Shown here piece by piece: positions 2,354 to 27,767 of a stretch of DNA of 27,767 bases. This DNA is from a virus, in IMG/VR virus record IMGVR_UViG_3300029787_000251, positions 1 through 27,767 of that record. The stretch is one strand, 5' to 3'. The translations under genes were made by a program, and so were the position numbers. The notes below the pieces were generated by a model. It saw nothing but the letters and a program-made list of their open reading frames with translations, was not told the DNA's origin and searched no databases. Position 1 is the first letter of the stretch, and each line of letters begins with the position of its first letter.

Positions 2354-4249
2354 TTAATCCCGTTCTACTAATGACTCCGGTGAAATGACCTTCTCCTCTA
2401 CGTTTGTACCGTCAGTCAATACGTGCGGACATACGTCCTTGTTTACGAAAGAATCTCGAACAAACACGACCCTTGAGCCAATTGGCTTACCAACCCACTC
2501 GCCCGTCTGATAGTACCGTTCATGTTTCAATGTACGGAAATGCCAACGACGATAGTGAGATCCCTGCTTACGACCCGTGTAGCCCCTCGGTCCCTTGAGG
2601 GTGAATGTTTTTGGGTTGTTTGATTTCGTTGGAGATGTCTTTTCCAATAACCCGGCACGGTTTTCTTTTTTGTTTGGCACTCCGCGATGCAGTACCTCAT
2701 CTCCCAACGCTTTGATATATATGAGCACCGAGGCCACTAAACGGACTATCTTCAAGCCTTCTGCCATCGCAAAATCGAAATGCTTTTCTGCAAACCGTCT
2801 CGCCTTCGTATCACCAGATTCCGCTAATAAAATCACTTGAGCAATGCAAAGTGGTAAAATCCAGTATTGCCCTTCACAATTAATCACCAAGCATTTTGAT
2901 CGATAATTCGCAGAGTCTCTTCTGTAATGTTCTGCTAACGCATCCAGCTCTTCATCAGTCATATCAGATGAATACATCGGGGTTTTTTGTTGTTGGAACA
3001 CGTACGCCGGACCATCTTCTGGTTTTTTTATGAAATTAACACCGTGAAATCTCGGGTCTCCACCAAGTTCAATGATTTTAGCTTTCTCATCCCAGGCCCA
3101 ACCCAAAGATTCCAACCCCTGAGATCTAAGAAAGCTGGCTGCGGATCGCGCTGATTCAGCGTTGATCTCATAACCCGAAGCAATGCTCACGTACATAGAG
3201 GTCATTTCATCCGCCTCATCAACATAATCGTTTGATTTTTCAGTAAAACCCTCGGGTATCATCAAGGCAAAACTTTGAATACCATCAGAAAAATCGATCC
3301 CATCAATGTGATATTCTGCGTCCAGAATGTCTTCTAGCAACTCTGCGGAGTCAGGGTAAATCACTATTCGATCAGAGTTCGGGCTGTTGTAAAAATAGTT
3401 CATGTTCATAAACTCAGCCGTCGCGACATATGTTTCCGTCAAGAAATCGTTGTATGCGTCGTGAATCGGATATTTCATCGGTTTACCGTCGTTAAAATCA
3501 GGGTGACTCATCTCGCCCGTTTTGCCCGAATCCTTGAGGTAGTGAAGACCAAATAAATGAAATAACGAAAAACGTTGTTGTAACGCATCTAAAACACGTT
3601 TGCGTAGGGATGCTTGAGACGACTCGTCGTCTTTATCTGCCACGAACCAAGTGAGGTGGGTTGTATATTCTTCAAATAAATAATGAGGGTGTAGGTTTTC
3701 GATATCGAATAGGTTTGTGAACCAATCCGGGTGTTTAACAAATTCCAAATCTTCATAAGACGCAGAATTTCTATTATGCCAATTATTCTTTACGAGATCA
3801 GAATCATAAGAAAAACAACCCAATAAATTGTTCAATAGCTGCCAGGTTTGTTCTGACTGCCCGCGATGTTCAAGAATATCCTCCTCCCGTATTCTTGTTA
3901 AATACAAAGAGGCTGCCATGTTACTGAGAAACATCGGGTTCAGTCCTATCTCTAACATTTCTTCTTTGTTACAACTGCGAAACAACGGTCGCGTTATAAT
4001 GTTTGAATTGTGGTATTCAAGCTGGTGCCGTAACTCCAAAGCAATTAAGTTCATCACCTCGAAACCGCCTTTCTCCAAAAGTCTAAGAAATTTTTTTGAG
4101 ACCAAATTGTCAAAGTGCCACGGTTCATTGTCGATTTTTTGTCTGGCGTTAAAATCTCTACGAAAATTTTTTGCTTCTCGTTTCATTCTTTTTATGTAAT
4201 CGGCAAGAAAACTGCGATTAATGTTTGGTAAGTCTTTGTAACCCTTCAT
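2354..4249 (-). CDS. Large conserved-type hypothetical protein with C-terminal RRWHFR motif
   Basis: A 631-residue soluble protein and the main product of the leftward cassette. The ATG at 4249 has a strong GAGGAG site. The N-terminal ~100 residues are basic and helical, and the middle is rich in aromatic and acidic residues with no catalytic signature I recognise. Residues ~530-600 turn basic, ending with HYRRWHFR (565-572), KHERYY (575-580) and a beta-like GSRVVFVRDSFV. A similar His/Arg/Trp block occurs, from memory, at the C-termini of uncharacterised plasmid and phage proteins, suggesting a small nucleic-acid-binding tail. There is no signal peptide or transmembrane segment. Real gene, unknown function. 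Confidence 0.7.
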   Translation of the reverse strand: MKGYKDLPNINRSFLADYIKRMKREAKNFRRDFNARQKIDNEPWHFDNLVSKKFLRLLEKGGFEVMNLIALELRHQLEYHNSNIITRPLFRSCNKEEMLEIGLNPMFLSNMAASLYLTRIREEDILEHRGQSEQTWQLLNNLLGCFSYDSDLVKNNWHNRNSASYEDLEFVKHPDWFTNLFDIENLHPHYLFEEYTTHLTWFVADKDDESSQASLRKRVLDALQQRFSLFHLFGLHYLKDSGKTGEMSHPDFNDGKPMKYPIHDAYNDFLTETYVATAEFMNMNYFYNSPNSDRIVIYPDSAELLEDILDAEYHIDGIDFSDGIQSFALMIPEGFTEKSNDYVDEADEMTSMYVSIASGYEINAESARSAASFLRSQGLESLGWAWDEKAKIIELGGDPRFHGVNFIKKPEDGPAYVFQQQKTPMYSSDMTDEELDALAEHYRRDSANYRSKCLVINCEGQYWILPLCIAQVILLAESGDTKARRFAEKHFDFAMAEGLKIVRLVASVLIYIKALGDEVLHRGVPNKKENRAGLLEKTSPTKSNNPKTFTLKGPRGYTGRKQGSHYRRWHFRTLKHERYYQTGEWVGKPIGSRVVFVRDSFVNKDVCPHVLTDGTNVEEKVISPESLVERD

Positions 4250-4332
4250 CTTTTCTCCTCGAAAAACCCCGCCAGACGGCCCACCCGGACGGGAACGGGT
4301 GTTCTAAGGCAGGAGTATTTGCCTCGGCCTGT

Positions 4333-4551
4333 TCAATGAATCTCTTCTTCTAGTTCCAGCATATTCGCTCGATGGTTAGCCAAATCAAACTCCACCAGGC
4401 TCTTTGCCAGTTCCATCTCTCGTTCAGATAAATCCAAAGACGTTTCGTACAGAAGGTTCAGTACACGCTCTGATTGTTTCTCGGTCGATGCGGTCAGTGC
4501 CATGCGTAGAGATTGTACGAAATACACAAAGTCGTTTGGGATCTCCATCAT
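4333..4551 (-). CDS. Small hypothetical helical protein
   Basis: A 72-residue, almost wholly helical and acidic protein (for example LSEREMELAKSLVEFDLANHRA). The ATG at 4551 follows GAGGAG at five bases; a second ATG directly after it is equally possible. The start overlaps the stop of the preceding gene in an ATGA-type junction. About 80 bases separate it from the 631-residue gene; that gap holds a GC-rich inverted repeat (CACCCG/CGGGTG) followed by five T's on this strand, which might be a weak terminator. Function unknown. Confidence 0.6.
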   Translation of the reverse strand: MMEIPNDFVYFVQSLRMALTASTEKQSERVLNLLYETSLDLSEREMELAKSLVEFDLANHRANMLELEEEIH

Positions 4552-4688
4552 TTTTTCTCCTCTTTGAGATTTTCATTGAGTAAATAGATCGCCTTCAAGA
4601 TCGTATCGATGTCTTTCTCGATCCGTTCAACACGGGCAAATAGCTCTTCAGCCTGTTCCTCGGTCAACGTAAGTTTGATTTCGATCAT
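4548..4688 (-). CDS. Small hypothetical coiled-coil protein, first gene of the leftward cassette
   Basis: A 46-residue protein starting MIEIKLTLTEEQAEELF with a heptad-like helix to its end (RVERIEKDIDTILKAIYLL). I start it at ATG 4688 because CGAGTAAATTC precedes it, resembling the AGGAGTAAAA leader of the rightward units; an ATG at 4739 in the same frame has no ribosome site. Two TCCCA half-sites lie just upstream on this strand (4709-4721). Function unknown. Confidence 0.55.
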   Translation of the reverse strand: MIEIKLTLTEEQAEELFARVERIEKDIDTILKAIYLLNENLKEEKK

Positions 4689-4708
4689 GAATTTACTCGT
4701 TTTGTGTA

Positions 4709-4721
4709 TGGGAACATGGGA
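4709..4721 (-). promoter_or_regulatory. Two TCCCA half-sites upstream of the leftward cassette
   Basis: On the minus strand the sequence reads TCCCATGTTCCCA, two direct copies of the half-site that forms the TGGGA-N4-TCCCA palindrome before the rightward genes. It lies 20 bases before the ATG at 4688 and is followed by CGAGTAAATTC. It may bind the same regulator. Confidence 0.4.
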
Positions 4722-4783
4722 GAGTATCGTGCATCGCATACGAAAACAAGCGTTTTTACGTTAATTCGCCTTACCTATTACAC

Positions 4784-4797
4784 TTTTCTGGAGAAAA
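4784..4797. repeat. 14-bp palindrome TTTTCT-GG-AGAAAA
   Basis: A perfect inverted repeat with six-base arms around GG, at the edge of the A/T tracts between divergent genes. It could be a repressor site or part of an unwinding element. Confidence 0.45.
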
Positions 4798-4832
4798 AAG
4801 TTTTTTGTAAAAAAATATTTTTTCAAAATGGT

Positions 4833-4859
4833 GTGACTAGCGTGACTAGCGTGACCAGA
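4833..4859. repeat. Three tandem 9-bp repeats (GTGACTAGC)
   Basis: GTGACTAGC at 4833-4841 and 4842-4850 is followed by GTGACCAGA at 4851-4859 (two mismatches). The tandem head-to-tail spacing next to an A/T-rich stretch is iteron-like. Confidence 0.7.
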
Positions 4860-4881
4860 CAGCTACGATAGGCCTCTCAGG

Positions 4882-4920
4882 GGTTACACCAGGGTTACAC
4901 CACTCAATAATGGTGTAACC
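4882..4920. repeat. Two direct and one inverted copy of GGTTACACCA
   Basis: GGTTACACCA occurs at 4882-4891 and 4893-4902, and its exact complement TGGTGTAACC at 4911-4920. The second and third copies form a perfect 10-bp inverted repeat with an 8-base spacer. They could bind an initiator or a repressor; as RNA the pair could form a hairpin, but there is no T-run after it. Confidence 0.75.
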
Positions 4921-5034
4921 TTTTCGCTTATACCCCGGAAACCATATATAGGGGCTAAAAAAATAAATTTTGTTAAAAAATTATTTGTTCTGAAAAGTTG
5001 CTAGTGGAAAGCGCGTTTATTAAACTCCTGAGAC

Positions 5035-5574
5035 ATGGCAGAAGCACTCAAGACCGAAACCCGGGGTAGGCCCCCAATATCTGAGAACACACGACTTACC
5101 GGCAAGCAGTCGAAGTTCGTTGAACTTTACTGCACCCGCGAAGGCACTGAAACACTCCAAAACCTGGCAATCGAAGCGGGCTTTTCAAAGTCCGGTGCTC
5201 ATACACGAGCGTACGAAATGCTCAACCCCAAAAAGAGCCCGCACATATGCAAGGCAGTGCGAGAACGAAGGGCAGAGCTAAACGAAAAATACGCTGTCAA
5301 TTTTGGTCAACACCTAGCTGACCTCGGAAAGATCCGAGACCAATCTATAGCGGCAGGGAACTATGCCGCTGCTACTGCCGCTGAAAAAGCAAGGGGTCAA
5401 GCTGCAGGGCTGTACGTTAACCGCAGTGAGATTCGACACGGGAGTATAGATCAAATGTCAAAAGAAGAAGTCCAACAAGCTCTGAATGATTTGAAACGTC
5501 AACTCGGTGAAAAGGTTATCGAACATGAAGCAAACGGAGTCGAACTTCTGGAAGCGTCTCAAAAAGAGGATTGA
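5035..5574 (+). CDS. terS: Terminase small subunit
   Basis: This 179-residue protein should bind the phage packaging site and recruit the large terminase to start DNA packaging. After a short basic N-terminus (TRGRPPISENTR) it shows the terminase_2-type N-terminal pattern: LTGKQSKFVELY, then NLAIEAGFSKSGAHTRAYEML (a helix-turn-helix) and ICKAVRERRAELNEKY. A central Ala-rich helix (AGNYAAATAAEKARGQAAG) and a charged C-terminal helix fit the oligomerising and large-subunit-contact parts. It is unusually far from the large subunit at 10588, with ten genes between. It is the first gene to the right of the divergent region and overlaps the nuclease gene by 50 bases. Confidence 0.88.
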   Translation: MAEALKTETRGRPPISENTRLTGKQSKFVELYCTREGTETLQNLAIEAGFSKSGAHTRAYEMLNPKKSPHICKAVRERRAELNEKYAVNFGQHLADLGKIRDQSIAAGNYAAATAAEKARGQAAGLYVNRSEIRHGSIDQMSKEEVQQALNDLKRQLGEKVIEHEANGVELLEASQKED

Positions 5575-5941
5575 TACAAGTTACGAGTGTCCAACCGTAA
5601 CCCGGATAGAAAATAGCTCGACGCCCGGTGTCCCTGACATACTGTTGATGGACGGTCACAAAAACCTTCATCTGATAGAACTCAAAGTTTGTTCGGGCAA
5701 CAAAGTAAATATCAGCCCCCATCAAGTATCTTTTGCTACCCGCCATGCTAACGCCCGTGTCTGGATGTTGGTCGAGGTTCAAAAGTCGGAGGGTAATAAG
5801 TGTTACCTGTATCGAGCAAATAGCGTAATGAAACTGGCTGAACACGGTTTGAAAGAAGTAGCACCCGATTTGATATTCGACCTGGTGGAAGACTTCGAAA
5901 CTTTCATCTACTGGATCAAGATCCAAAAAAATAGGGGTTGA
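5525..5941 (+). CDS. VRR-NUC/PD-(D/E)XK-type nuclease
   Basis: A 138-residue single-domain nuclease-like protein. Visible core residues are an N-terminal Glu (TESNFWKRL), then RIENSSTPGVPDILL with Asp38, LIELKV with Glu52 and Lys54, and SPHQVSF with Gln67. This order (E...D...ExK...Q) is typical of stand-alone phage VRR-NUC proteins of the restriction-endonuclease fold, which can act on branched DNA. I prefer ATG 5525 (AAGG upstream); GTG 5507 in frame would add six residues. It overlaps the small terminase gene by 50 bases, so a role in trimming or resolving branched DNA before packaging is a reasonable inference. Confidence 0.82.
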   Translation: MKQTESNFWKRLKKRIDTSYECPTVTRIENSSTPGVPDILLMDGHKNLHLIELKVCSGNKVNISPHQVSFATRHANARVWMLVEVQKSEGNKCYLYRANSVMKLAEHGLKEVAPDLIFDLVEDFETFIYWIKIQKNRG

Positions 5942-19410: not shown

Positions 19411-19892
19411 TGACAGACATAGATAAAACAATCGACGCTATCAAGAAGACCTCTCGCGCAAAATCCACGAGAGAATCTACGGCTAGGCGTAAGCCGTGGT
19501 CTCCAAAGTCAAATTTAGATGCTCCCGACGCACCAGAGGGCTACAAGCATCGTTGGATACGTTTTGAAACCCGAGGTTTTGATGATCAAGCCAATATTAC
19601 GGGCCGATTACGTGAAGGCTACGAGCTAGTCCGACGAGACGAGTACCCCGATTTTGAAGCCCCGACCATTGAGTCAGGCAAATACGAGGGAGTTTTTGGA
19701 GTTGGCGGATTGCTTCTCGCTAGAATTCCGCTAGAAACAGTTGAAGAAAGGACTGCATATTTCAATTCGAAACATGCAGACCAAATAGAAGCCGTTGAAA
19801 CGGATATACTTAGAGAGAATGCTCACTCAACCATGCGGATTGACAAACCAGAACGTCAATCTCGCGTAACTTTTGGTGGTCCTCGTAAGTAG
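19410..19892 (+). CDS. Hypothetical virion/assembly protein
   Basis: A 160-residue protein: a basic N-terminus (TSRAKSTRESTARRKPWSP), then APEGYKHRWIRFETRGFDD and LREGYELVRRDEYPDFEA, a Gly-rich hydrophobic core (GVFGVGGLLLARIPLET) and a charged C-terminus. Its start overlaps the scaffold-like gene's stop (TAATG), so it is translationally coupled to the capsid-assembly set. From memory, similar proteins occur at this place in uncultured marine phages. No enzymatic motif is seen; the role is unknown. Confidence 0.7.
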   Translation: MTDIDKTIDAIKKTSRAKSTRESTARRKPWSPKSNLDAPDAPEGYKHRWIRFETRGFDDQANITGRLREGYELVRRDEYPDFEAPTIESGKYEGVFGVGGLLLARIPLETVEERTAYFNSKHADQIEAVETDILRENAHSTMRIDKPERQSRVTFGGPRK

Positions 19893-20580: not shown

Positions 20581-21486
20581 ATGGCTATTACTCGCGCACA
20601 ATTAGCGAAAGAGCTTGAACCCGGCTTAAATGCTCTGTTCGGGCTTGAATATGATCGTTACGATCAGGAACACGCTGAGATATTCGACGAAGAATCTTCT
20701 GACCGAGCGTTCGAAGAAGAAGTCATGCTCTCAGGGTTCGGTACTGCTCCGGTTAAAGCGGAAGGCAGTGCTATCTCGTTTGACGACGCGCAAGAGACCT
20801 TCACAGCGCGTTATACGCACGAGACAATTGCTCTAGCGTTTTCAATAACGGAAGAAGCTATCGAAGATAATCTCTACGACCGGCTAGCTTCTCGTTATAC
20901 GAGAGCTTTGGCTAGATCAATGTCACAGACCAAGCAGGTTCGGGCTGCTGCTGTATTGAACAATGCGTTTAGCACTGCTTCACCTATTGGTGACGGTGCG
21001 GCTCTTTGTTCTGCGGCTCACCCTTCCATATCTGGCAACCAACGTAACCTTCTCAGCACTGCTGCGGATCTCAATGAGACTTCGCTAGAGCAAATGTTGA
21101 TTGATGTTGCTGGGTTGACTGATGAGCGTGGTCTGAAGATTGCAGTCCGAGGAATGAAACTGATCATTCCAAAGGAATTGCAATTTATTGCAGAACGAGT
21201 TCTAAACTCAAACTTGCGACCTGGAACGGCGGATAATGATATTAACGCCACCAAGTCAATGGGTATGTTGCCTGATGGGGCTGTCGTCAACCATTTCCTC
21301 ACGGATACTGACGCTTTCTTCATCAAGACAGACGCACCTAATGGCTTCAAGTTGTTCCAAAGAACCCCCATCAAAACAGCGATGGAAGGTGACTTTGATA
21401 CTGGAAACATGCGATTCAAAGCACGTGAAAGATATTCTTTCGGCGTCAGCGATTGGAGAGCAGTGTTCGGTACTCCAGGTGCATAA
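20581..21486 (+). CDS. Major capsid protein
   Basis: A 301-residue protein expected to form the icosahedral shell. Its N-terminus (MAITRAQLAKELEPGLNALFG) leads to an acidic segment, a helical spine-like part (FSITEEAIEDNLYDRLASRYTRALARS), an A-domain-like LIIPKELQFIAERVLNS, and a C-terminal DTGNMRFKARERYSFGVSDW, consistent with HK97-fold capsid proteins of Mu gpT-like type. Size, GGGGG ribosome site, scaffold and decoration neighbours and the strong terminator directly after it all fit the most abundant virion protein. Confidence 0.9.
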   Translation: MAITRAQLAKELEPGLNALFGLEYDRYDQEHAEIFDEESSDRAFEEEVMLSGFGTAPVKAEGSAISFDDAQETFTARYTHETIALAFSITEEAIEDNLYDRLASRYTRALARSMSQTKQVRAAAVLNNAFSTASPIGDGAALCSAAHPSISGNQRNLLSTAADLNETSLEQMLIDVAGLTDERGLKIAVRGMKLIIPKELQFIAERVLNSNLRPGTADNDINATKSMGMLPDGAVVNHFLTDTDAFFIKTDAPNGFKLFQRTPIKTAMEGDFDTGNMRFKARERYSFGVSDWRAVFGTPGA

Positions 21487-26997: not shown

Positions 26998-27767
26998 GTG
27001 GCGGATATTACTGGATGGGGCAGAGGCACTTGGGGCGAAGATGCGTGGGGCGAACCTGATCTCGTCGATGTCACAGGTGTATCTGCAACTGGCTCAGTCG
27101 GATCGGTTACGGTCACGGCAGATGCAAACACCTCTGTCACAGGCGTGGCGGGAACGTCTGCGGTCGGGTCAGTCACAGTCGCAGCAGCCTCTAATACATC
27201 AGTTACAGGAGTATCTGCAACAGGGTCTATTGGATCTGTATCGGTTACGGCAGCAGCTAATGTTACGCCAACGGGTGTCGCAGGTACGAGTGCTGTCGGG
27301 TCTGTATCGGTCAGCGCGGCAGCGTCCACCTCGGTCTCCGGCGTATCTGCAACAGGATCTGTGGGATCGGTTTCTGTTACCGCCGATGCGGTCGTCAGTC
27401 CTACTGGTGTTGCTGGCACTTCAGCCGCTGGCAGCGTTACAGTCTCAGGTGCGGCTAACCTCAGTGTCACGGGCGTTTCAGCAACTGGTGGTGTGGGTTC
27501 TGTCACTGCTACTGCTGGGGCCAACGCTTCTGTTACTGGCGTTGATGCTACTGGTTCAGTCGGTTCGGTATCCGTTACTGGTGCTGCATCGATTACCCCT
27601 ACTGGTGTGGCAGGTACTGGTGCGATTGGCACTGTATCTATTGCGGTCGGGCAAAATATTACAGTCACTGGTACAGCAGGCTCTGCACAAGTGGGTGTTG
27701 TCGCGGTTGAACCAGACACGAATGTATCCCCAGTTGGAGTTAGTGGAACCGGACAAATCGGATTTGC
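26998..27767 (+). CDS. Repetitive tail/surface-type protein, incomplete at window end
   Basis: The frame from GTG 26998 is open to the window end (256 codons). After the Trp/Gly-rich start VADITGWGRGTWGEDAWGEP it consists of 22-residue repeats. Odd and even units tend to alternate between a VTGVSATGSVGSVTV type and a PTGVAGTSAVGSVSV type. The composition (Gly, Ser, Thr, Val, Ala) and lack of Cys suggest a rigid beta-solenoid or Ig-like stack on the virion surface, possibly a tail fibre stem. I chose GTG because it gives this ordered repeat; ATG 26996 reads another frame. A weak GAGA lies upstream. The C-terminus is outside the window. Confidence 0.72.
   Translation, partial: MADITGWGRGTWGEDAWGEPDLVDVTGVSATGSVGSVTVTADANTSVTGVAGTSAVGSVTVAAASNTSVTGVSATGSIGSVSVTAAANVTPTGVAGTSAVGSVSVSAAASTSVSGVSATGSVGSVSVTADAVVSPTGVAGTSAAGSVTVSGAANLSVTGVSATGGVGSVTATAGANASVTGVDATGSVGSVSVTGAASITPTGVAGTGAIGTVSIAVGQNITVTGTAGSAQVGVVAVEPDTNVSPVGVSGTGQIGF
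27070..27767 (+). repeat. Tandem 66-bp repeats (22 residues), ten complete plus one partial
   Basis: Units start at 27070 and every 66 bases to 27664, with an eleventh beginning at 27730. The protein core is (V/P)TGV.(A/G)T..VGSV(T/S)V. Similarity falls toward the end of the window. Alternating unit types give an approximate 132-bp higher-order period in the first six units. Confidence 0.85.

Follow-up and report, generated by a model that had tools for sequence, protein, structure and literature searches.

The repeat element upstream of the TerS gene

The DNA analyzed was the 27,767-nt (27.8-kb) virus record IMGVR_UViG_3300029787_000251, and this whole stretch is referred to below as the window. 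Between two A/T blocks, and bounded by a leftward 63-aa frame and the gene for the terminase small subunit TerS (start at 5035), the window carries six related units. Three 9-bp units stand in tandem (4831-4857); beyond a 24-nt spacer come two inverted units, placed 11 bp apart (at 4882 and 4893), and then one direct unit (4912-4920). The features were as follows.

8-355, + strand: C-terminal end of DNA polymerase A (gene annotation of the window)
4784-4797, unstranded: 14-bp palindrome TTTTCT-GG-AGAAAA at the left edge of the A/T block, absent from most aligned relatives
4793-4828, unstranded: left A/T tract block; an A/T-rich block stands at the same place in the aligned clades
4831-4839, + strand: iteron R1, GTGTGACTA, core GTGAC (R1 to R3 from window sequence and relatives' alignment)
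4840-4848, + strand: iteron R2, GCGTGACTA
4849-4857, + strand: iteron R3, GCGTGACCA
4858-4881, unstranded: spacer from tandem to inverted iterons, variable and in relatives often self-complementary
4882-4890, - strand: inverted iteron IR1, GGTTACACC, core GTAAC on the - strand (IR1 and IR2 from window sequence and alignment)
4893-4901, - strand: inverted iteron IR2, GGTTACACC
4912-4920, + strand: iteron R4, GGTGTAACC, absent in one relative clade and inverted in GGAAC-type relatives
4947-4955, + strand: TATAGGGGC motif, conserved in the relatives' alignment
4957-4988, unstranded: right A/T-rich tract (window sequence and relatives' alignment)
4998-5026, + strand: sigma-70-like promoter TTGCTA-N17-TAAACT, seen by eye and not called by a promoter scan
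5035-5574, + strand: TerS (Terminase_2-like), excluded below as core reader

An earlier note on this DNA had described a 14-bp palindrome, alternating A/T tracts, three tandem 9-bp repeats and three copies of a 10-bp repeat. The palindrome is present, with 6-bp arms and a non-palindromic GG centre, as are the alternating tracts at 4793-4828; a second tract set, at about 4957-4988, had been missed. The 10-bp repeat is exact in all three copies (GGTTACACCA direct at 4882-4891 and 4893-4902, TGGTGTAACC inverted at 4911-4920). For the tandem repeats, GTGACTAGC is exact at 4833-4841 and 4842-4850, but the third copy (GTGACCAGA, 4851-4859) matches at 7 of 9 positions. A further stretch that had not been listed, TGGTGTGAC at 4829-4837, unites the tandem units and the 10-bp repeats into one family (GYGK-NN-C; 91%).

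Nine direct and four inverted pairs of exact 9-mers were counted in 4784-4920. Among 2000 dinucleotide shuffles of this interval, the direct count was never reached, the inverted count was reached four times, and both together never. Across the whole window, both counts were reached by only 2 of 1382 intervals of 137 nt (starting at 4801 and 4821). By shuffling and by scanning, the density of repeats is therefore real and beyond chance.

The promoter-like site stops 8 nt short of the ATG of TerS, with a spacing that the aligned relatives keep; this suggests that the TerS mRNA may be leaderless or nearly so. Two side observations concern the immediate surroundings. The TATAGGGGC motif (4947-4955) is kept beside the right A-tract and, in L115, is doubled around that tract. 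To the left of the element, the slot at 2354-4249 encodes 631 aa in the window and unrelated genes in close relatives (372 aa in G001, G002 and G007; 299 aa in G003 and G009); no clear family was found for the 631-aa and 372-aa proteins.

A fixed layout with a changing core

Relatives were taken from IMG/VR as TerS-anchored loci, to which primase-anchored loci were later added. Across them the layout persists and a core of about 5 bp differs (GTAAC, GTTAC, GGTAC, GGGAC, GGAAC, and others), with a change of core usually hitting all copies together. In 63 of 111 analyzed loci, all three tandem copies and two or more of the inverted ones had the exact core (GTAAC in 30, GTTAC in 18, GGAAC in 6, GGTAC in 4, and others in 5). 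A strict detector gave scores of at least 4 for 66 of 158 distinct upstream regions of relatives, compared to 0 of 3160 block-shuffled ones. The element of the window itself scores below 3, because its tandem core GTGAC and its inverted core GTAAC differ by one base. Intermediate states of this kind were also seen in L010 (one deviating copy) and L101 (GGGAC in the tandem and GGTAC in the inverted units).

The earlier note had made conservation of the repeats in relatives a test of its reading. The architecture is kept, but the letters differ, and since it is the architecture and not the letters that is conserved, conservation seems lost until the copies are compared within one genome. As in iteron origins, several short repeats are clustered in one place with an A/T-rich stretch alongside. 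Most relatives examined have a single array, usually one cluster per contig, and a scan for exact 6-mer clusters found a few contigs with a second cluster or with none. Cumulative GC skew, also suggested earlier as a check, leaves the locus unmarked and tracks gene direction in three near-complete relatives. A nucleotide search with 4300-5600 gave no match among cultured phages, and the layout was not seen by eye upstream of TerS in HTVC023P, HTVC027P, 023Pt_psg01, and DSL-LC04.

Covariation of the core with one primase wing residue

Judging from the way in which the two sequences vary together, the core is very likely read by the winged helix at the C terminus of the archaeo-eukaryotic primase (AEP) that the phage encodes. 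A residue-level comparison found nine type-tracking columns in the AEP primase, and five of the eight listed fall within residues 480-493; in the alignment, this stretch is the wing that follows helix HKIAQRLRDING. Among the neighboring genes (63 aa, 72 aa, 631 aa, VRR-NUC, clamp-like, and 150 aa), some of them fast-evolving and only partly covered in this comparison, type-tracking was not clear, with a single such column in the 150-aa family, and a 175-aa coiled-coil gene had 0 type-tracking columns.

To pair elements with primases, 234 sequences were searched, giving 225 primase hits and 68 elements, with 53 distinct pairs, of which 52 were used. L530 was excluded because its core reads as GGTTA, and clade A (five contigs) lies outside the 52 pairs because its copies carry two cores, and was treated as an exception. 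Several primase-anchored loci lie on contigs already included, and only identical pairs were removed. Residue 476 (G027 numbering) followed the core closely: V in 26 and A in 1 of 27 pairs with GTAAC, L in 10 and T in 2 of 12 with GTTAC, Q in all four with GGTAC and all four with GGGAC, and K in all five with GGAAC. Mutual information (MI) between this residue and the core was 1.72 of 1.87 bits, and the corrected value was 1.45, compared to 0.64 for the next of 524 primase columns. Across UvrD, PolA, SNF2, gp34-like, gp33-like, TerS, and VRR-NUC, the best corrected MI was at most 0.61, so no other column in the eight proteins approaches residue 476. A second wing position separates the two Q types, in that GGGAC always goes with KAI and GGTAC with KVV or KPV. 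For loci fetched after the rule had been noted, 13 of 14 fit it strictly, with L595 having T with GTTAC; one of these 14, L554, is the contig of G035, which had been seen earlier.

Clade A, to which the window belongs, breaks the residue-476 code, since G001, G003, and G004 have L with the inverted core GTAAC. In this clade, of five genomes only, the residues after GK (QI, TT, RV) vary with the core instead. The window has no primase gene of its own; judging by the gene order of relatives, the primase and the other replication genes lie past its left end. Going by clade A, that primase would be expected to have an HSSLL(K/R)IQ wing and its own pair of residues following GK. In 67 of 68 detections the element was found 6.1-13.5 kb downstream of the primase stop, the 68th being G020, whose contig opens at another point, and this distance also holds where TerS has moved beside TerL. 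Of 80 primase loci or records that extend at least 9.95 kb downstream, 30 lacked a strict element there; this set counts G-records and L-loci of one contig twice, so that ten of the 30 are the five clade A contigs doubled. Two cultured phages whose primases are distantly related also gave no element, nor did the DNA examined of the MAG contigs L609 and L610. These two (from Pirellulaceae and Flavobacteriaceae MAGs) encode primase relatives of 63 and 56% identity, respectively, and are possibly phage sequence binned with bacteria.

On a tree built from primase columns 1-430, with the wing left out, the core changed 15 times, residue 476 16 times, and the core-residue pair 16 times, indicating that nearly every switch was joint. 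Close pairs illustrate this: L361 (GTAAC) has STVLKIKGKPT, compared to SMLLKIKGKPT in L363, L365, and L370 (GTTAC), so that the wings of L361 and L363 are two residues apart, and G027 and G036 differ likewise from G016, as does L380 from L368 (GGGAC, with Q). Independent-pair tests on well-supported branches went in the expected direction in 4 of 4 and 3 of 3 cases, numbers too small to reach p<0.05.

The element of G001 resembles that of a sister lineage, unlike its TerS and flanks. An exchange scan of this genome (9849 comparable bases, 1867 windows of 45 nt, with spans merged from 45-, 60-, and 80-nt scans) found three tracts that were nearer to both sister genomes than to any genome of its own lineage, given here in the coordinates of oriented G001.

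19781-19846: primase wing
about 20861-20941: UvrD-like helicase
about 27381-27516: element

With 80-nt windows the element alone had stood out, and the reading that nothing had moved with it was overturned by the shorter windows, which added the primase wing and the UvrD stretch. The UvrD-like helicase tract could be chance or a partner of the switch.

An AlphaFold2 model was made of the last 160 primase residues from 25 sequences (mean pLDDT 71.8, with 80-88 over the domain). The modeled domain would consist of helices 91-100 and 108-117 and a beta-hairpin (121-127/130-138), i.e., a helix-turn-helix followed by a beta-hairpin, and residue 476, at model position 124, is predicted to lie in the first wing strand. 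The best Foldseek hits of the domain were to TcpK (5vfx/5vfy; probability 0.99-1.00, E 0.017-0.06). Among the VIA-align 2 matches listed, TcpK had Z 7.7, SCCmec Cch residues 437-552 had 7.1, and SaPIBov1 Rep 452-556 had 6.0; these values are middling, all below the tool's own mark of 8, and unrelated winged-helix regulators of similar Z were among the matches. The P4 origin-binding domain was absent among the fold matches listed, and a PDB sequence search with the primase domain gave nothing useful. The primase gene itself matches AEP-TOTE and the phrog_21866 primase.

A probable replication origin and alternative readings

We consider it quite probable, on the strength of these sequence comparisons, that the winged-helix domain at the C terminus of the phage's AEP primase binds the element as an iteron array, and that this array is most likely the phage replication origin. 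Since the letters of the repeats and one primase amino acid change together, lock and key are indicated at once. What the genomes show directly is covariation, layout, and gene order, and from these we infer the remaining mechanism. Primase subunits would bind the three tandem and the two or three opposed sites via the beta-wing, while the flanking A/T tracts would bend or open. The bound primase would prime at the array, after which the products of the adjacent operon (UvrD-like helicase, PolA, and gp33/gp34-like proteins) would take over, with the separate UvrD-like helicase and PolA extending the fork. The set of sites and the wing would have to switch together, since replication would fail with a mismatched pair, and each lineage would thereby gain a private origin.

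The earlier note had left the choice between an initiator-dependent origin and a genetic-switch operator between divergent operons. The covariation of the core with a primase wing residue supports the former; no regulator tracking the repeats was found. It seems improbable that the array serves the flanking promoters as an operator or switch to which the winged helix of the primase, or some other regulator, binds. The element does lie upstream of the conserved promoter-like site before TerS, and the leftward genes of the window begin at about 4690-4739. However, no linked regulator covaries, the protein that covaries best is an enzyme of replication encoded 6-13 kb away, and divergence of the flanking operons is not essential, since several relatives have the element between co-directional genes and others before a different gene.

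An equally improbable reading is that the element is a pac site, where, as in SPP1/SF6, the bent A-tract DNA would be wrapped by a TerS ring and the repeats would set the phase of the wrapping. TerS from SF6 is described as picking bent DNA with little sequence preference, and the boxA repeats of SPP1 as being replaced by others in SF6 (PMC4737164); a pac role was therefore taken seriously. As there, repeat-bearing bent DNA whose repeats are not conserved would lie upstream of TerS; here the element has A-tracts on both sides and is followed immediately by TerS (of the Terminase_2 family) in the window and in most relatives. Unlike in SPP1/SF6, the letters of the repeats track the primase and not TerS. 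Loci L002, L003, L004, L006, and L007 encode an identical TerS despite differing cores (L002 and L003 share a core type), so TerS cannot be the core reader, and the best corrected MI of any TerS column was 0.39. In L038 and L039, TerS is found next to TerL, together with VRR-NUC, and the element, which has stayed in place, is about 4 kb upstream; L057 has the same layout of element, VRR-NUC, and TerL. Packaging would also leave the agreement among copies unexplained. The TerL and TerS of the window resemble those of HTVC027P, 023Pt_psg01, and DSL-LC04. As a side observation, 14 of 119 contig ends upstream of TerS fall 150-300 nt from it, the fullest 150-nt bin, and may be assembly breaks.

That the unit works as structured RNA or as a cruciform, with base-pairing as the reason for the agreement among copies, is very improbable. 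Its mean fold z in 32 loci was -3.0 on the + and -2.8 on the - strand, and the arms formed by R and IR units are complementary by construction, but both strands fold equally. No Rfam family came near threshold, the flanks of the direct pair R2-R3 agree at least as well as those of inverted pairs, R4 can be lost or inverted, and base-pairing predicts no protein residue. Just as improbable is homogenization of the copies by slippage or template switching with no reader, which would fit their change in concert and intermediates such as L010, but not clade B, where sites share the core of about 5 bp alone while flanking bases stay different (which argues that the core is recognized and not that tracts are copied), nor covariation with a distant codon.

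The origin bound by the primase would be a variant of known primase/initiator-iteron kinds (P4 alpha, PICI/SaPI, PLE). P4 alpha is reported to be a primase protein that binds origin repeats through a winged-helix domain (PMC4234260), as is predicted here from sequence. It is a single multifunctional polypeptide that also unwinds, whereas here no helicase match was found in the primase, a separate UvrD-like helicase is encoded by the next gene, and the array has three direct and two inverted units (plus one). PICI/SaPI and SCCmec Cch2 systems are described as having short iterons (two sets in PICIs) with specificity in the C-terminal domain of the initiator (PMC7581432, PMC6092414), and the primase model resembles the Cch and SaPIBov1 Rep C-termini. 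However, SaPI Rep and Cch2 are initiator helicases with the ori beside their gene, whereas here an AEP primase would act on an ori 6-13 kb away. In PLE, the satellites of ICP1, the RepA_N DNA-binding domain and the ori iterons are said to covary and to be swapped as modules (PMC8263062). The covariation is alike, but there, in satellites, a whole domain is exchanged, and here, in phages, a change across the core accompanies one or a few wing residues. TcpK of pCW3, the best fold match, reportedly binds 9-nt tandem repeats, GGAACTTTA, in oriT with its beta-wing in the major groove (PMC6137059); unlike the primase, it is a conjugation accessory protein, its boxes lie 3 nt apart, and its crystal dimers bridge two DNAs.

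In the open-access literature covered by a non-exhaustive search, no origin or iterons were described for these phages. The primase-bound origin would name an origin and initiator for uncultured marine phages related to the HTVC023P type, and would supply a natural protein-DNA specificity code with many switches. It also offers a recipe for finding origins with unconserved letters: look for repeats that agree within and not between genomes, then for a protein column that tracks them. More tentatively, and with some doubt, we suggest that in these very abundant marine phages a free-standing AEP primase is the initiator, with a private code: the 5-bp core and a single beta-wing residue (V, L, Q, or K) would have switched in concert, repeatedly, and some of these switches would have come about through very small exchanges, in which the core and about 15 wing codons moved but little of the DNA between them. 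The likely driver would be conflict, i.e., escape from origin-directed nucleases, satellites, or co-infecting phages sharing the origin.

Two minor observations were made upstream of TerS in relatives. L129 and L232 have three additional inverted iterons to the left of the A-tract, and in L027-L060 the intergenic DNA is rich in short GATCCGCG-like repeats that are distinct from the element.
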